Shown here piece after piece: positions 14,262 through 21,165 of a stretch of 40,898 nucleotides of DNA (its first letter is position 1; each line of letters starts with the position of its first letter). Both the position numbers and the translations under genes were made by a program. Under the pieces are notes generated by a model. The model made no database searches and had not been told where the DNA came from. It saw nothing but the letters and a program-made list of their open reading frames with translations. The stretch is from the NCBI RefSeq assembly GCF_000472285.1, contig NZ_KI421418.1, positions 258,623 through 299,520 on the forward strand. The letters run 5' to 3'. This DNA is from Desulfuromonas sp. TF. GTDB lineage: Bacteria > Desulfobacterota > Desulfuromonadia > Desulfuromonadales > ATBO01.

Positions 14262-14407
14262 TCTATTCAGAGAATCTGATAAGAGTAAGGTCGCTTCCTT
14301 GACCCCGCTACTTTAATTTAGGGAGGTCCGTATTTTTTCTCATCCTCTGGACAACCTGTCCCACCCCAGGTAAACATTCCTGTTCATGGGCTTCAATAGG
14401 GATTAAA

Positions 14408-14713
14408 TTACATTCTCGCATGTGATGCAATATAGAGGTCTATAGCGATGGACTCTATAAGAAAGGAAGCGGCAATAAACGGCATTAAGAAGGCTGCTGC
14501 TCTACTCTGGTGCCTCGAGAATTTAAAAGATCGTATGACTTCGATGATAAACCAGAACAGGTTTAGAAGAGGAATAAATACAAACAGAAAAACAATAAGT
14601 CCAAATCCTGAATCCATACGATTAAATCCGAAAATCAAATCAAATTTAGCGCCGACAAAAAGGATCAATGGCACTTGGGTTGAGATAATCGCTACGCCTC
14701 TAAAAATATTCAC
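14408..14713 (-). CDS. Small hypothetical membrane protein
   Basis: A 101-residue frame on an AT-rich patch unlike its GC-rich neighbours. The product has three hydrophobic segments (VPLILFVGAKFDLIFGF, LIVFLFVFIPLLNLFWFII and FLMPFIAASFLIESIAI) and basic connecting loops, a plausible inner-membrane topology. The start is a GTG at 14713 with GAGG seven bases upstream. The overlapping plus-strand frame (14448-14747) is Lys/Asn-rich without such structure. No family is recognised; low GC suggests foreign origin. Confidence 0.45.
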   Translation of the reverse strand: MNIFRGVAIISTQVPLILFVGAKFDLIFGFNRMDSGFGLIVFLFVFIPLLNLFWFIIEVIRSFKFSRHQSRAAAFLMPFIAASFLIESIAIDLYIASHARM

Positions 14714-14763
14714 CTTCAGACCTCATGGTTGCAATTTAACGGTATAGATAAGAGTAAGTTAGA

Positions 14764-14824
14764 GTGTCAGGTCTACACATTGACAAAAATTCTGTCATTT
14801 GATGTCAAGGAGTAGACCTGACAC
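14764..14824. repeat. 61-bp palindrome with 13-bp perfect inverted ends, copy 2 of the REP-like family
   Basis: GTGTCAGGTCTAC (14764-14776) is the exact reverse complement of GTAGACCTGACAC (14812-14824). The centre contains a second inverted pair, TGACA/TGTCA. The element overlaps the end of the phosphatase gene and supplies its last codons and TGA. A similar element lies at 17724-17784, and both are followed by a related TTTATCCTGTTG-TTTATC stretch (14830-14849 and 17790-17809). Confidence 0.85.
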
Positions 14825-15859
14825 TGCTGTTTTATCCTGTTGTTTTATCTCCGGCGCCAGGACCGCCTTTCTGATCGCCGCGATATCGGCCGCGCGAATG
14901 AGCTTCGGGATGTTGCCGTAAAAGAAGGCGTGGTAACCGTAGCCGCCATCGGTCAATTCGAGGATGGCAGCTTCCTTCTCCCACCCTTGGAAGACGATCC
15001 GGTACATGGCGCTGACCAGACCTGTGCGGTCGGAGCCGTGCCAGCAGTGGATCAGGATCGGTCCGTCGCTGTTGCTGATGATGCGAAGCGCCGCAATGAC
15101 CTGGTCGGTGGTGACGGATCCGGCCGCCATCGGCACCCGGAAGAGGTTCATCCCCGCGGTTTCCTCGCCGCTGTCGATGTGGTGTTCGCGCAGGTTGAGG
15201 ACATTGCTGATGCCGAGCGCCTTGAGCTCGGCGAACCCCACGGCGCTGGGCTGCGCCGCCCGGTAGACCTTGGAGTCGAGGCGGTAGAAGTTCTTAAGCT
15301 GCGCGGAGGGGAGGGGGCTCGCCCAGGCGGAGGGGCGTCCGTCCTGTTCAGCCTGGTCGTCCTGGCAGTAGTTTTGCGGATGGTCCTCCGCATAGGCCTG
15401 GAGCTGCCGCTTGACCTGCTCCTTCTCGATCGCGTTCAGTTCCTTGTAGCCACGTCCGTAGTCCCAGCCGTAGCCCCAGCGGTACCAGGCGGGAAAGGCC
15501 GGGATGCCGCCGGCGCGAACGCCGAGATACATGGCTTGCGCCAGGGTCGCATCGCCAGTCCGCTCCTGGACGCAGCCGCGCAGGGCTTCGTCCGTCGCAA
15601 GGCGCTCCGCTTCGCTTCCCCCCTGCCAGTAGGCCATATCATGGCTGAAACAGCAGTCGCACCACCTGGTGCGGTCGTTGAGGGTGCCGTCGGGGAAGAG
15701 GCTGCAGCCGTCGCTGCTGAAGGGGTGGATTTCGGTGGCAGCGAAAGTGGCGGAACCCGTCAGCAGCATGGCCGCCAACAGCACAGGGGTCATGGGGCGC
15801 AGCAAAAGGCGGGTCAGGGATCGTAAGAGTTCCATGAAAATTCCGAGCAGGTGAGACAT
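14795..15859 (-). CDS. Secreted fusion: phospholipase A2-like domain plus dual-specificity phosphatase domain
   Basis: Product of 354 residues. The signal peptide (PMTPVLLAAMLLTGSATFA) is cleaved near residue 40. The first domain (about 45-160) carries DGCSLFPDGT and CDCCFSHDMAYWQGG (67-81), which matches the CCxxHD catalytic signature of phospholipase A2-type folds (Cys69-Cys70, His73-Asp74). The second domain (about 190-325) contains HCWHGSDRTG (271-280), the HCx5R(S/T) phosphate loop of tyrosine/dual-specificity phosphatases with Cys272 and Arg278, preceded by YRAAQPS and LGISNVLNLRE as in the atypical DSP group. Export with both active sites intact suggests a periplasmic or secreted enzyme acting on phospholipid or phosphoinositide-like substrate. 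That is inference. The ATG at 15859 is used; one at 15835 is an alternative. The last six codons come from a palindromic repeat. Confidence 0.8.
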   Translation of the reverse strand: MSHLLGIFMELLRSLTRLLLRPMTPVLLAAMLLTGSATFAATEIHPFSSDGCSLFPDGTLNDRTRWCDCCFSHDMAYWQGGSEAERLATDEALRGCVQERTGDATLAQAMYLGVRAGGIPAFPAWYRWGYGWDYGRGYKELNAIEKEQVKRQLQAYAEDHPQNYCQDDQAEQDGRPSAWASPLPSAQLKNFYRLDSKVYRAAQPSAVGFAELKALGISNVLNLREHHIDSGEETAGMNLFRVPMAAGSVTTDQVIAALRIISNSDGPILIHCWHGSDRTGLVSAMYRIVFQGWEKEAAILELTDGGYGYHAFFYGNIPKLIRAADIAAIRKAVLAPEIKQQDKTAVSGLLLDIK

Positions 15860-15956
15860 TCTTTGTACCTACGGTAGTGGGGGCTGGGACAGCTGAACTG
15901 TAAGAGAACCACATTAGGGCCTGAATTCAGGTCCAGAAAGGGTGACGCGAAAAAGG

Positions 15957-16337
15957 TTAAAAAGTTTCTTCCCAAAACTCCGGAAAATCGAAGGAGAGTT
16001 GCCGGTGGTGCTTGATAGCCAGCAGGTAGAGATCGTTGTCGCGCCGGGCGTAGAGGATGAGGTAGTCGCCGCGGATCAGTTCGCTCAGGGCGGTCTGGGA
16101 ACCAAGGCGTTTCCGAAGAGCGGATTCCAACTCGGAGGCTTCACGGGAGGACGCTCGGCGGCGGAAGAAGTCGGTTCCAAGTTCTGGATAGCGTTCGAGG
16201 GCGGGGATGCTCTCTTCGAAGAGGTCGTCGAGCAGCGCCGAAAAGGCCCCCGGTGCGTCGGCTTCGAGCAGGAACTCCTTGATGGCGTCGAGATTCTCAG
16301 CGAAGTGGCGGGTAACCCGGATGACGGCTTTTCTCAT
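15957..16337 (-). CDS. ParE/RelE-superfamily toxin
   Basis: A 126-residue protein matching the RelE/ParE fold: an N-terminal helical pair (NLDAIKEFLLEAD and FSALLDDLFEESIPALERYP), then LIRGDYLILYARRDNDLYLLAIKHHRQL, the usual strand pattern with conserved Arg and Tyr near the end. It is longer than the typical 90-100 residues owing to an insert around residues 55-85. Its ATG overlaps the antitoxin stop (ATGA at 16337-16334). Whether it acts on gyrase (ParE) or on ribosome-bound mRNA (RelE) cannot be told; the helical N-terminus leans to ParE. Confidence 0.82.
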   Translation of the reverse strand: MRKAVIRVTRHFAENLDAIKEFLLEADAPGAFSALLDDLFEESIPALERYPELGTDFFRRRASSREASELESALRKRLGSQTALSELIRGDYLILYARRDNDLYLLAIKHHRQLSFDFPEFWEETF

Positions 16338-16618
16338 TCTTCGCGGCCGTAGCGCGCCTTGAGCTCAGCCACCGACAGCAGATCTCCCTTTTCGACGTCA
16401 TCCCAGCCGCGGCTCGCCTCTTCCAGAAGGGTGAGATGGATATTTTCGCGCTCCAGGCGGTGATAGTAGTCGAGTCGCCGGGCGTCGATAAGGGCGACAT
16501 AGGCTTTGCCGTTGCGGGTGATGATCTTCTCGCGCCCCCGGCAGGCGTCTTCGGCCAGTTCTGTCAGCCGGGCCCGCATCTCCTTGAGAGGGACGATGTC
16601 CTTGCTGGTGATCGACAT
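16334..16618 (-). CDS. Phd/YefM-family antitoxin
   Basis: A 94-residue partner of the toxin. The N-terminus has the Phd/YefM DNA-binding signature: SKDIVPLKEMRARLTELAED, then IITRNGKAYVALIDARR. The C-terminal half (EEASRGWDDVEKGDLLSVAE) is acidic and probably wraps the toxin. A purine-rich AAGGAGACATC precedes the ATG. A perfect-armed palindrome upstream is the likely site of autorepression by the antitoxin or the complex. Confidence 0.87.
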   Translation of the reverse strand: MSITSKDIVPLKEMRARLTELAEDACRGREKIITRNGKAYVALIDARRLDYYHRLERENIHLTLLEEASRGWDDVEKGDLLSVAELKARYGREE

Positions 16619-16645
16619 GATGTCTCCTTGGGTTGAAAGTTACAC

Positions 16646-16663
16646 CAATAGATTAAACTATTG
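16646..16663 (-). promoter_or_regulatory. Palindromic operator of the toxin-antitoxin operon
   Basis: CAATAG at 16646-16651 and CTATTG at 16658-16663 form exact arms around ATTAAA. The site lies 28 bases upstream of the antitoxin start. On the minus strand a TTGCCG 17 bases ahead of TAATCT would put the -10 element inside the palindrome, so binding would block RNA polymerase, as expected for Phd-type autoregulation. Confidence 0.6.
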
Positions 16664-16709
16664 ATGCAGCTTCGGCAATGGCCGAATTCGTCCCCCAGAG
16701 AAAAACGAT

Positions 16710-17330
16710 TCATGGGGCCAGGCGCTCTATCACCCAGTTTCCTGCCTCGTCACGCCGATAGCGCAACCTGTCATGGAGGCGGTTTTCCCCTTCCTGCCAG
16801 AACTCCATCACTCCGGGGACGACTCGGTAGCCGCCCCAATGAAGGGGGCGGGGAACGTCCTGCCCTTCAAATTTCCGGGTCAGATCCTTGAACCGCTTTT
16901 CCAGGGAAGAACGGTCTCTGATGATCTCGCTCTGGGGCGAAGCATGGGCGCCGAGTTGATAACCCCTGGGTCGGCCGGAAAAGTAAAGATCGGATTCGGC
17001 GGCACCCGATTGTTCCACAATCCCTTCGACCCGAACCTGACGGGATAAAGGCAGCCAGCAGAACACGAGAGAAGCCAATGGATTTTCCCGTAGTTCCTGT
17101 GCTTTTCGACTCTCGTAGTTGGTGAAAAAGACAAAACCGCGCTCATCAACCTCCTTGAGCAGTACGACCCGGGCCGATGGCTTTCCCTGTCGGCTCGAAG
17201 TGGCGAGCGTCATGGCATTTGGAAGCGGGACTTCGGCCTGCTCGGCTTCACGAAGCCACCTGATAAACTGCGAGATTGGATTGGGTTCCAAGCTATTCCG
17301 GAGCAGCGGTGTCCTCGGCCAATTTTTCAT
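16710..17330 (-). CDS. pdxH: Pyridoxamine 5'-phosphate oxidase
   Basis: FMN enzyme that oxidises pyridoxamine or pyridoxine 5'-phosphate to pyridoxal 5'-phosphate, the last step of vitamin B6 synthesis and salvage. The sequence carries the family motifs: NAMTLATSSRQGKPSARVVL, GFVFFTNYESRKAQEL (FMN phosphate contacts), PLSRQVRVEG, FSGRPRGYQLGAHASPQS, and the C-terminal signature HWGGYRVVPGVMEFWQ with RLHDRLRY. From the ATG at 17330 the product is 206 residues, close to the 210-220 of the family; the frame extends to 17432 without homology. PLP is needed by the cysteine desulfurase-like enzyme at 25.1 kb, though the genes are not linked. Confidence 0.93.
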   Translation of the reverse strand: MKNWPRTPLLRNSLEPNPISQFIRWLREAEQAEVPLPNAMTLATSSRQGKPSARVVLLKEVDERGFVFFTNYESRKAQELRENPLASLVFCWLPLSRQVRVEGIVEQSGAAESDLYFSGRPRGYQLGAHASPQSEIIRDRSSLEKRFKDLTRKFEGQDVPRPLHWGGYRVVPGVMEFWQEGENRLHDRLRYRRDEAGNWVIERLAP

Positions 17331-18907: not shown

Positions 18908-19165
18908 TTAATTCACCAGCATCCGCCAATCCCCCACCCCCAACGCCTCGGCAAGCATCCGAGCCCGCTCCTTGCCGATGGGGCGCTTGCCGTTCTCCAT
19001 CTCGCTGATGTGATGCTGCGGGATGCCTGTACGTGCCGATAGTTCCTTCTGGGTCAGGTCCTCGCGAGTGCGGTAGGCGCGCAAGGCCACATGCGACTTA
19101 CTGCCGAGATATTCAGGAAAGACCTCGGCGACGGTAATTCGGATTTGGTCATGATCTCTGTTCAC
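18908..19165 (-). CDS. XRE-family helix-turn-helix regulator, last gene of the R-M operon
   Basis: An 85-residue protein. The HTH is clear: LTQKELSARTGIPQHHISEM followed by ENGKRPIGKERARMLAEALG. The GTG at 19165 overlaps the nuclease TGA in a GTGA junction, which fixes the start and makes the gene part of the operon. Small XRE proteins beside type II systems often act as controller (C) proteins that time nuclease expression. Here it lies downstream of the nuclease, not before it, so the role is less certain; an antitoxin-like or silencing function is also possible. Confidence 0.72.
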   Translation of the reverse strand: MNRDHDQIRITVAEVFPEYLGSKSHVALRAYRTREDLTQKELSARTGIPQHHISEMENGKRPIGKERARMLAEALGVGDWRMLVN

Positions 19166-20019
19166 AACCCGTGCTCCCTTTTCAACTGCCTTAAATCTTC
19201 CTCCAACTGCTCCCCCATCGACTGCGTATAGATCCGTGTGATCCTGCCGACGTTTTGCAATTCCACCAGTTTCCCCAAGTCGCTGGTACGCTCCCGCCAT
19301 GTGATCCCGTCCGTTACCAGCAGGAAATGAGTGTCATGCCGTTTCTCAGTGACGATCCGGCTGATGTCGCCCAAGACGTCCGTCTGCTTGCTGCCGGTGG
19401 CGCCGTATGCTTTGGCTTCTACCAGAATGGCCGGATCCTTGCGGTTAGGAATGGCGAAATCCGCTTTTTCGGAGCTGATTCCAGTGGCGCCGAGAAAGCT
19501 GCAGCGAAGGTCGTAGGCGTTTTCTCCGAAGACGCGGATGATCTTCCCCTCGACGAAATCCTCCAGGAAGCGACCACGGCGCTGTCCCTTGATGGCGCTT
19601 CCGCGACCGCCCTTGAGACGTTCCACCATCAAATCGCTCCAAACTAAGGGCCGGTTCACCGCTGCAGCAATCCGGTCCAGCAGCCCCAACTCCTCAAGTG
19701 CGCCAAAGAATTGATCTGAGTTCTGAAGAGCTTTCTTGATGCCTATTCCCTTGCCGAGCCGGTCCCTCAATTCGGCGGTGAACTCGTCCTTGGACATGTC
19801 CAGAAACAGACGAACCACCGTCAGGTCAGCATCGAAGCGCTTCCGATTGGTGGTATCCAAATCGAACATTCCGATCAGGTCGTTACGGGTGTAGGCGGTT
19901 TTGACGGGAAAGTCTTCCAGCTCCCGGATCACCGCATCGGCATGATCGTCGCGCCAGCTGGCCTCGACGGGAGACAGGTGCTCAAGGATTTCGTCCAGGG
20001 TTTGCCGGTAGCGTTTCAT
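19162..20019 (-). CDS. Type II restriction endonuclease (PD-(D/E)XK type)
   Basis: A 285-residue protein directly downstream of a DNA adenine methylase; stop and start abut as TGA-ATG (20022-20017). The central catalytic block reads KADFAIPNRKDPAILVEAKA, fitting D-x(n)-E-x-K of the PD-(D/E)XK nuclease fold (Asp in ADF, Glu and Lys in VEAK). The N-terminal 110 residues are helical and probably bind DNA. Overall shape resembles DpnII-like nucleases; the recognition site cannot be read from the sequence. It overlaps the HTH gene by four bases. Confidence 0.75.
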   Translation of the reverse strand: MKRYRQTLDEILEHLSPVEASWRDDHADAVIRELEDFPVKTAYTRNDLIGMFDLDTTNRKRFDADLTVVRLFLDMSKDEFTAELRDRLGKGIGIKKALQNSDQFFGALEELGLLDRIAAAVNRPLVWSDLMVERLKGGRGSAIKGQRRGRFLEDFVEGKIIRVFGENAYDLRCSFLGATGISSEKADFAIPNRKDPAILVEAKAYGATGSKQTDVLGDISRIVTEKRHDTHFLLVTDGITWRERTSDLGKLVELQNVGRITRIYTQSMGEQLEEDLRQLKREHGL

Positions 20020-21165
20020 TCAGACTCCGATGATGAGGTATTCCTTGACCTGGGCTCGTTTCACGGCCTGATGGGTTCCGAAGTGGTAGCGATGCGCGCG
20101 CTCGAAGACTTCCACCGTGCGCTTGTACTTGCGCATGAGGCGGTGCAGAACGGCGAGGTCGGGATAGCCGTTGGAGGAGTAGGAGAGGACAAGAGTGCTG
20201 TCGGCGAATTTGCGGAACATGCTATCAAAGGCGTCGATGGCGTTCTTGCGATAGGAGAAGGGAGTGAAGGGTTTTTCGATCTTCTTCACCTTCGTATCCG
20301 GCATGATCGTCTTGCCTTCCCAGTAGCAGGAAAGCCCCTCCAGGAAGTGGTAGCGCTTCATGTAACAGTTGTCGTCGGCGCGCGGCACGTAGGGAGGGTC
20401 CATGTAAACCAGATCCGGCGGTTCAGGCAACTGCCAGTCGAAGACGTCGCCGCAATGGGCCGAGTTCCGCTGCCCATTGTCGAAGGCGGCGGCGTTGTAA
20501 ACCTGTACCTGCTCCAGAAAATGCTCCCGCAGGCTCAGCTTCAAATCGCGCCGGCCGTCCTTGTAATGATCCAGGTCGCCGGAGATGGTGAAAACCCCAC
20601 GGGGCTGGCGCTTGGCGCAGGATCGTATGAGGGCGGCGCGGGCGATGGCCTGCTCGTGAGGGTCGGTCAATTTCCGGATGTTCCAGGAGGTTTGATCGAG
20701 GAAGTGAAGATCCTTCGGCGTGTAGAAAATTCCCGAGAAAGTCTTCTCGATGAATCGTTCGTGGTCCTTGTCCGTTTCTAGAAGCATTTCCAGGCTTCCA
20801 TTTGAAAGCTGACGGCCGGGATTCTCGATCAAGGCCTTGGCCAGAGTCGTGCCGAGGTTGAGGAAGTCATTGGAGGCCACCCGCTTGCCCATGGACTTGA
20901 ACATGTAGCCGATACAGCCGGAGCCCGAAAAGGCATCGGCGGCACTCTCGAATGTCAGGTCGGACAGAACGGTATGAATCCAGGGGAGAAGCCGGTATTT
21001 GCTCCCCATGAAGCGGATTTGCGGGAAATCTCCCGCCTTGGCGGGAAATCCCAGGTCGAACAGCTTTGCCTGGTCCGGTTCGGGGATCGGTTCCGCCACG
21101 ATGAAACGGCCGTCTGCTTCTGGGGCGGAATCATTGCAATAGGGAGTGGGATTGGATGAAGACAT
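20020..21165 (-). CDS. D12-class DNA N6-adenine methyltransferase
   Basis: A 381-residue methylase that should protect the host from the adjacent nuclease. Motifs are in the alpha-class order: IRFMGSKYRLLPWI (about 50) and DAFSGSGCIGYMFKSMG (SAM site, about 78-94) come first, a target-recognition part follows, and then the catalytic LVYMDPPYVPRADD (DPPY, about 255) and the C-terminal LVLSYSSNGYP. A 45-residue N-terminal extension precedes the core. It is the first gene of the methylase-nuclease-HTH operon, which lets protection appear before cutting. The recognition sequence is not deducible by eye. Confidence 0.86.
   Translation of the reverse strand: MSSSNPTPYCNDSAPEADGRFIVAEPIPEPDQAKLFDLGFPAKAGDFPQIRFMGSKYRLLPWIHTVLSDLTFESAADAFSGSGCIGYMFKSMGKRVASNDFLNLGTTLAKALIENPGRQLSNGSLEMLLETDKDHERFIEKTFSGIFYTPKDLHFLDQTSWNIRKLTDPHEQAIARAALIRSCAKRQPRGVFTISGDLDHYKDGRRDLKLSLREHFLEQVQVYNAAAFDNGQRNSAHCGDVFDWQLPEPPDLVYMDPPYVPRADDNCYMKRYHFLEGLSCYWEGKTIMPDTKVKKIEKPFTPFSYRKNAIDAFDSMFRKFADSTLVLSYSSNGYPDLAVLHRLMRKYKRTVEVFERAHRYHFGTHQAVKRAQVKEYLIIGV

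Follow-up and report, generated by a model that had tools for sequence, protein, structure and literature searches.

A predicted exported fusion of a phospholipase A2-like domain and a TpbA-like dual-specificity phosphatase in Desulfuromonas sp. TF

The fusion gene and its surroundings

The window analysed in this study is a stretch of 40,898 nucleotides on contig NZ_KI421418.1 of Desulfuromonas sp. TF. It contains a gene for a 354-residue protein in which a phospholipase A2 (PLA2)-like part is followed by a dual-specificity phosphatase (DSP) part (Table 1). The first-pass annotation of this DNA had given the correct coordinates of the gene; the strand, which it left unstated, is minus. It had also described the chain as exported, and an export-type N-terminus can be read by eye from the sequence as basic residues, a hydrophobic run and the stretch TFA followed by ATE. 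Three ATG codons are candidate starts, and the signal remains with each of them. Six cysteines fall in the PLA2-like part and one, the catalytic Cys272, in the DSP part, a distribution that would suit an oxidising compartment.

A Phd/ParE-like pair lies directly 5′ of the fusion gene, with the ParE-type toxin above the Pfam cut-off and the Phd/YefM-like antitoxin just below it. The product of the gene on the 3′ side is a small protein of membrane type that matches no Pfam family, and among the loci compared no match to it was found beyond the window's own genome. Scanning positions 14300-16750 for promoters and terminators returned nothing exceeding shuffled sequence. The window also holds a compact restriction-modification locus, in which DpnII-like and D12-class genes stand beside a reading frame with an HTH-looking stretch, and an exported-looking protein of 651 residues in which an N-terminal CGSCH...CNGCH stretch with a haem-binding look (by eye) is followed by Glucodextran_B and Ig-like repeats.

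Table 1. Features of the fusion gene and of other genes in the window
Feature	Positions	Strand	Basis or remark
Fusion gene, PLA2-like + DSP, 354 aa	14795..15859	minus	same architecture in G045
Export signal, residues 1-40 (candidate starts at residues 1, 9 and 23)	15740..15859	minus	sequence read
PLA2-like domain, residues 41-165	15365..15739	minus	predicted structure and profile
Asp50 of DGC motif, predicted calcium ligand	15710..15712	minus	profile alignment to solved PLA2s
His73-Asp74 of CCxxHD	15638..15643	minus	profile alignment, 59/60 rows
Asp90, predicted catalytic-dyad partner of His73	15590..15592	minus	profile alignment, 59/60 rows
Conserved RWGYGWDYGRGY motif, residues 127-138	15446..15481	minus	family alignment
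TpbA-like DSP domain, residues 175-335	14855..15337	minus	Pfam and TpbA chain matches
P-loop HCWHGSDR, residues 271-278 (Cys272, Asp277, Arg278)	15026..15049	minus	sequence motif
ParE-type toxin and Phd/YefM-like antitoxin pair	15957..16618	minus	directly 5′ of fusion gene
Compact restriction-modification locus	18908..21165	minus	
Reading frame with HTH-looking stretch	18908..19300	minus	by eye
DpnII-like restriction endonuclease	19162..20019	minus	
D12-class adenine methylase	20020..21165	minus	
Exported-looking protein, 651 aa	12231..14186	plus	

Two predicted catalytic domains in one chain

The N-terminal half had been assigned to the PLA2 type with a CCxxHD signature, which is present as CCFSHD at residues 69-74. 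No Pfam or NCBIfam model covers this part of the protein, and PF09056 gives no match to the protein at E <= 1; PHROG 6098, to which no function is assigned, matches the PLA2-like part with an E value of 1.4e-9. When 15 members of the PLA2-like family were scanned singly against Pfam, weak matches were obtained to PF09056 in five, PLA2G12 in three, DUF1353 in two and PF00068 in two. The best E value among the weak PLA2-type matches was 0.00028, that of PF09056 was 0.03, and nine unrelated families each appeared in one or two members of the same scan.

An AF2 model of residues 41-179, built from a 15-row alignment, had a pLDDT of 82.8 and a pTM of 0.79, with the remaining four models at 73-75. 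Foldseek against the PDB ranked two bacterial PLA2s first and second (probability 1.00; E 0.029 and 0.079), and VIA-align placed three PLA2s at Z scores of 7.1, 6.8 and 6.0, the next row being unrelated at 5.6. These structural scores are moderate, and a Z score below 8 is weak alone, but the sequence profile concurs: profile A4 searched against solved chains returned four at E <= 10, all of them bacterial or fungal secreted PLA2s (best 8.9e-4), and its alignment places Asp50, His73-Asp74 and Asp90 on the catalytic columns of solved PLA2s. We take Asp50 to be the calcium ligand of the domain. Among 60 distinct rows, which were gathered by similarity searches and hence do not form an independent sample, Asp50, His73, Asp74 and Asp90 are all kept in 56, and the other four are gapped there; counted separately, Asp50 is present in 56 rows and gapped in four, while His73-Asp74 and Asp90 are each present in 59. 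Computation shows that this half has a predicted PLA2-like fold around His73-Asp74 with the full set of predicted catalytic residues. The conserved RWGYGWDYGRGY motif lies at the edge of, or outside, the stretch aligned to solved PLA2s and is possibly a membrane-facing patch.

The PLA2 type assigned by the first-pass annotation holds as PLA2-like, with the refinement that the domain is closer to bacterial and fungal secreted PLA2s than to the venom or pancreatic type. The latter was considered and rejected: PF00068 matches weakly in only 2 of the 15 members, profile A4 finds the bacterial and fungal secreted type only, and four pancreatic-type chains detected with profile A1 at E ~0.7 rank below two group XIV-type chains.

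A viral fold library gave no match at E <= 0.001; the named rows that ranked high in it included densovirus VP1 proteins, DUF1353 and a phage PLA2. Members of the PLA2-like family are also encoded on 22 IMG/VR viral contigs (L043-L064), and most of the copies read lack a clear signal peptide; the members tested match PHROG 6098, and three of them weakly match PHROG 1158 (tail assembly chaperone). Eight related contigs (L051, L052-L057 and L061) carry an in-frame TGA in the PLA2-like gene at the conserved Cys96 column (positions 4130-4132 in L051). The reading frame beyond it reaches a TAA in all seven copies with the end present, and a 7-bp stem-loop starts 11 bases 3′ of the TGA in all eight, with a compensatory A-T to C-G change in L055. 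Judged from the sequence, the pattern resembles that of a phage gene in which a selenocysteine codon is served by a bacterial SECIS element. Three results count against this reading: other unfiltered frames in those viral stretches end in TGA too, no tRNA was found in the stretches examined (L051 group), and Rfam returned nothing relevant on L051 4080-4230.

The C-terminal half matches chains of TpbA (4r0s, E 1.4e-23, residues 175-335), its closest solved relative. Four Pfam phosphatase families match it above the cut-off and six below. The best is Tc-R-P (E 1.2e-9), a family named after polymorphic toxin systems; Y_phosphatase3 matches, though not as the best family, and DSPc itself falls below the cut-off. 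The HCx5R signature claimed earlier is present as HCWHGSDR, and computation shows a predicted DSP domain with an intact P-loop. The two domains claimed for one chain were recovered, by the TpbA chain match for the DSP and by predicted fold and profile for the PLA2-like part. Given the DSP matches and the conserved PLA2-like family, the CCxxHD and HCx5R motifs are not chance occurrences at the level of sequence.

The column of TpbA Asp105 is Gly247 in the window DSP and holds Asp in one of the 32 close DSP rows (distinct, E<1e-40). All 32 have Asp immediately ahead of the P-loop Arg, as do 51 of 55 distinct rows at E<1e-10, a set in which HCx5R[TS] was required and matches without the motif were removed beforehand. 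In the accessible portion of PMC4409338, Asp105 is the proposed general acid of TpbA and D105A cuts efficiency by only 53%, so the missing Asp in the window DSP need not mean a dead enzyme. According to the available excerpt of PMC3091653, MptpB-type and myotubularin phosphatases have an Asp at the position preceding the P-loop Arg, and in MptpB it is important for catalysis.

Occurrence of the fusion and gene partners in relatives

The whole protein was searched in 147 genomes of relatives, and the domains were tallied by hand from the rows. Matches were obtained in 24 genomes: both domains lie in one frame in two (G000, the window's own genome, and G045) and in separate genes in two (G048 and G054), while nine have only the PLA2-like part and eleven only the DSP part, with G026 among the latter also giving a weak PLA2-like profile match. 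The G045 fusion is 63% identical, with the same domain order in one open frame, and because this second genome has it the fusion is not an assembly artefact. Across a phylum sample of 395 genomes 53 match, with both domains at one place in G000 only. Profile searches counted the PLA2-like domain in 13 and the DSP in 12 of 136 genomes of the order, and in 23 and 103 of the 395 genomes of the phylum sample, many of these DSP matches being weak. The architecture, which the first-pass annotation had called unfamiliar, is uncommon and its sites are intact, yet it is assembled from known folds. Among 72,556 plasmid and 50,697 phage records, no place covered 80% of the fusion protein; partial matches occurred in 49 and 2 of them, respectively. 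An insensitive scan of genome contigs seeded from short exact peptides gave three PLA2-like loci, none with a DSP. The PLA2-DSP fusion was not found in the literature searched, a set poor in subscription journals.

The final tree, from which the DSP rows G347 and G480 and the G048 DSP were excluded, recovers the two fused DSPs as sisters (99/99). The PLA2 halves are sisters in 16% of bootstrap trees, a relationship that is not rejected (AU p 0.355), and they group near four lipoprotein-type relatives without clear resolution. Together, the sister DSP halves and the unrejected sisterhood of the PLA2 halves are compatible with a single older fusion that two families have retained. The catalytic residues are all intact in both fusions.

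The nearest stand-alone PLA2-like relatives (G012, G034, G048 and G099) come from four families, and their proteins carry a lipobox-like Cys. In all four, a DUF3943 gene is followed by a PAP2-type gene that converges tail-to-tail on the PLA2-like gene. PAP2 was recognised by Pfam in G048, G099 and G012. In G034, where Pfam confirmed DUF3943, the PAP2-type gene was identified by similarity to G048 over 110 residues only, since the stretch runs into masked bases; in G099 DUF3943 is split across two frames. The G048 PAP2 query matched 15 of the 136 genomes of the order, over at least 110 residues at >=63% in these four only and more weakly in ten. The remaining match, in G015, has 84% identity over 55 residues; there (L192:1498-1668; genome 87% complete) the PAP2 frame, which comes after a DUF3943-type gene, breaks off at 56 codons. 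A profile search found no PLA2-like match in G015, where perhaps a single deletion removed both convergent genes. The four PAP2 cases may represent one ancestral or transferred block. The G048-type PAP2 has no match in either fusion genome, and no close PAP2 lies beside the fusion in the window or in G045; PAP2 as a family is present in all seven genomes checked. Likewise, neither the window nor L154 (G045) gave a tblastn match to the G048 DUF3943.

Phosphatases accompany these domains in further arrangements. In G048 the PLA2-like gene has a secreted-type DSP gene 57 bases to its 5′ side, on the same strand; this DSP is distant from that of the window (26%) and has no P-loop Asp. A frame in G188 (L155, C275:1-1608), open at the contig start, combines an APP1 phosphatidate phosphatase (E 2.5e-42) with a putative serine esterase (DUF676, marginally over the cut-off) and a PLA2-like domain; of the two genomes of its order that were compared, only G188 has a match. 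G003 has a fusion of the DSP with Peptidase_C92 (E 3.3e-11), the family of YiiX, which the available portion of PMC3142127 describes with a bound fatty acid. Eighteen neighbour genes of nine more distant stand-alone copies included no phosphatase recognised by Pfam (15 match some Pfam family and three match none); neighbours were chosen by a longest-frame rule, and nine of 12 distant loci were scanned, L152 on one side only. The phosphatase link therefore belongs to the window's clade and G188, not to the whole family.

Envelope lipids as candidate substrates and related systems

The R-P phosphatases of DUF3943 operons presumably belong to the rhodanese-phosphatase superfamily, DSPs included. 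In the accessible text of PMC12419801, DUF3943 (YfiM-Griddle, lipocone superfamily) is predicted to be a lipid head-group domain of the outer membrane, and its operons may include genes for PAP2 and for a secreted R-P phosphatase. Two members of the DUF3943/PAP2/R-P set are combined in the window protein, which is why we read it as a putative envelope enzyme that would deacylate and dephosphorylate membrane lipids; with its predicted fold and sequence motifs, we give this reading about an even chance of being right. A calcium-using PLA2-like domain would cut an acyl chain off a glycerophospholipid, and the Cys272 phosphatase, possibly with Asp277 of the P-loop as general acid, would dephosphorylate that lipid or a neighbouring one. 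Candidate lipids would be phosphatidate, lysophosphatidate, lipids of the phosphatidylglycerophosphate type, or lipid A. The fusion could then be a condensed form of a lipid-trimming set that relatives encode separately as a DUF3943 protein, a PAP2 phosphatase, a PLA2-like lipoprotein and a secreted DSP. The lipid substrate proposed for the phosphatase by the first-pass annotation gains indirect support from the PAP2, DSP and APP1 partners in relatives and from the P-loop Asp. Its particular suggestions (phosphoinositide, polyprenyl phosphate, host or prey membrane) received no specific support, and own-envelope lipids match the neighbours in relatives better. Against the envelope reading, the PAP2 neighbours are convergent and not co-operonic with the PLA2-like gene, and the G188 and G003 cases are single genomes each. 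The phosphatase-free neighbourhoods of the nine more distant copies, the absence of DUF3943 and a close PAP2 beside both fusions, the distant G048 DSP that lacks the P-loop Asp, the missing Lys of the MptpB signature and the moderate structural scores also weigh against it.

An extended form of this reading, which we hold only tentatively, is that acyl chain and phosphate are removed from the same lipid and that the fusion is one of several independent assemblies of an unrecognised outer-membrane lipid-trimming module, an acyl hydrolase plus a phosphatase, seen as DSP fusion, PAP2 neighbour, APP1 fusion and DSP-C92 fusion. The DSP family would then constitute a novel lipid phosphatase group using the P-loop Asp as general acid.

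Alternatively, the DSP could act like TpbA as a periplasmic protein-tyrosine phosphatase on a membrane signalling protein, for example a CHASE8-GGDEF diguanylate cyclase, with the PLA2-like domain as membrane recruiter or separate activity. TpbA is the closest solved relative of this half, the accessible parts of PMC4409338 and PMC2691606 report that it dephosphorylates TpbB peptides, and G000 has a CHASE8 match above the cut-off (E 3.2e-18). We nevertheless find this reading unlikely: the Asp105 column is Gly247, with Asp in one of 32 close rows, the CHASE8 match of G045 is below the cut-off only, and it explains neither the intact PLA2 residues nor the PAP2 and APP1 partners seen in relatives. 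The toxin and chance-fusion readings are less likely than both the envelope and the TpbA-like readings. That two unrelated exported proteins were joined by chance, with no coupled function, would fit the rarity of the fusion (two cases in 147 relatives, one in the 395 genomes of the phylum sample) and the low bootstrap frequency of PLA2 sisterhood; it is made improbable by the sister DSP halves, by a PLA2 sisterhood that is not rejected, by catalytic residues intact in both fusions and by the phosphatases of other folds that accompany the PLA2-like domain in relatives. Bacterial PLA2s can serve in attack, and the Tc-R-P name and the 22 viral contigs with PLA2-like relatives would suit a secreted effector against competitor or host membranes, its DSP acting on target lipids or proteins; this is the least probable reading of all, as the Pfam matches of the fusion protein include no delivery domain, the small downstream membrane gene, a possible immunity gene, is unmatched outside the window's genome among the loci compared, and the distant relative TtaP remains with the bacterial cell in the available text of PMC11525133. 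A toxin role by the Tc-R-P name alone is not supported.

If the envelope lipid-trimming reading is true, it would be a sign that Gram-negative envelopes have a PLA2-type route of deacylation outside all Pfam and NCBIfam models, and would suggest lipids as substrates for exported TpbA-like phosphatases otherwise taken as protein phosphatases. The protein is also a handy test object, with two predicted active sites in one chain that is probably exported, each removable by one point mutation.

Comparison with known systems places the protein between several families. The DUF3943 outer-membrane loci resemble the surroundings of the four nearest stand-alone relatives, which adjoin DUF3943 and a PAP2-type gene, in G048 together with a secreted DSP; unlike these, the window locus is without DUF3943 or a close PAP2, and the loci as described in the accessible text of PMC12419801 name a patatin-like lipase rather than a PLA2 of the window's kind. 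TpbA, the periplasmic DSP of Pseudomonas aeruginosa (4r0s, 2m3v), has the domain fold (by sequence) and HCx5R in common with the window DSP, for which export is predicted from an N-terminus read by eye. It differs in the P-loop (HCKHGNNR against HCWHGSDR), in having Asp105 where the window protein has Gly247, and in its lack of a PLA2 half. The MptpB-like and myotubularin lipid phosphatases, as excerpts of the source describe them, share with the window DSP the Asp before the P-loop Arg and the absence of a general-acid Asp in the usual loop; the Lys of the MptpB signature HCXXGKDR is Ser276 in the window protein, which keeps Asp277.

The group XIV PLA2s (1faz/1lwb from Streptomyces, 4aup from Tuber, 8k1w from Saccharothrix and 7ygk from Sciscionella; PF09056) have the same predicted core fold, with Asp, His-Asp and Asp common to both on the catalytic columns, whereas the window protein has other cysteines, a conserved RWGYGW stretch, the DSP fusion and no PF09056 match. 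TtaP (DUF1353, PF07087), the family of which was a weak match of two of the 15 members scanned, is in the available portion of PMC11525133 a divergent, distant group XIV homologue with shown PLA2 activity. As described there, it keeps the His, Asp and dyad Asp as the window protein does, and is without an overt secretion signal and a DSP half; the window protein has an export-type N-terminus and a DSP half. Since TtaP is active as a PLA2, divergent domains of this kind can be true enzymes.
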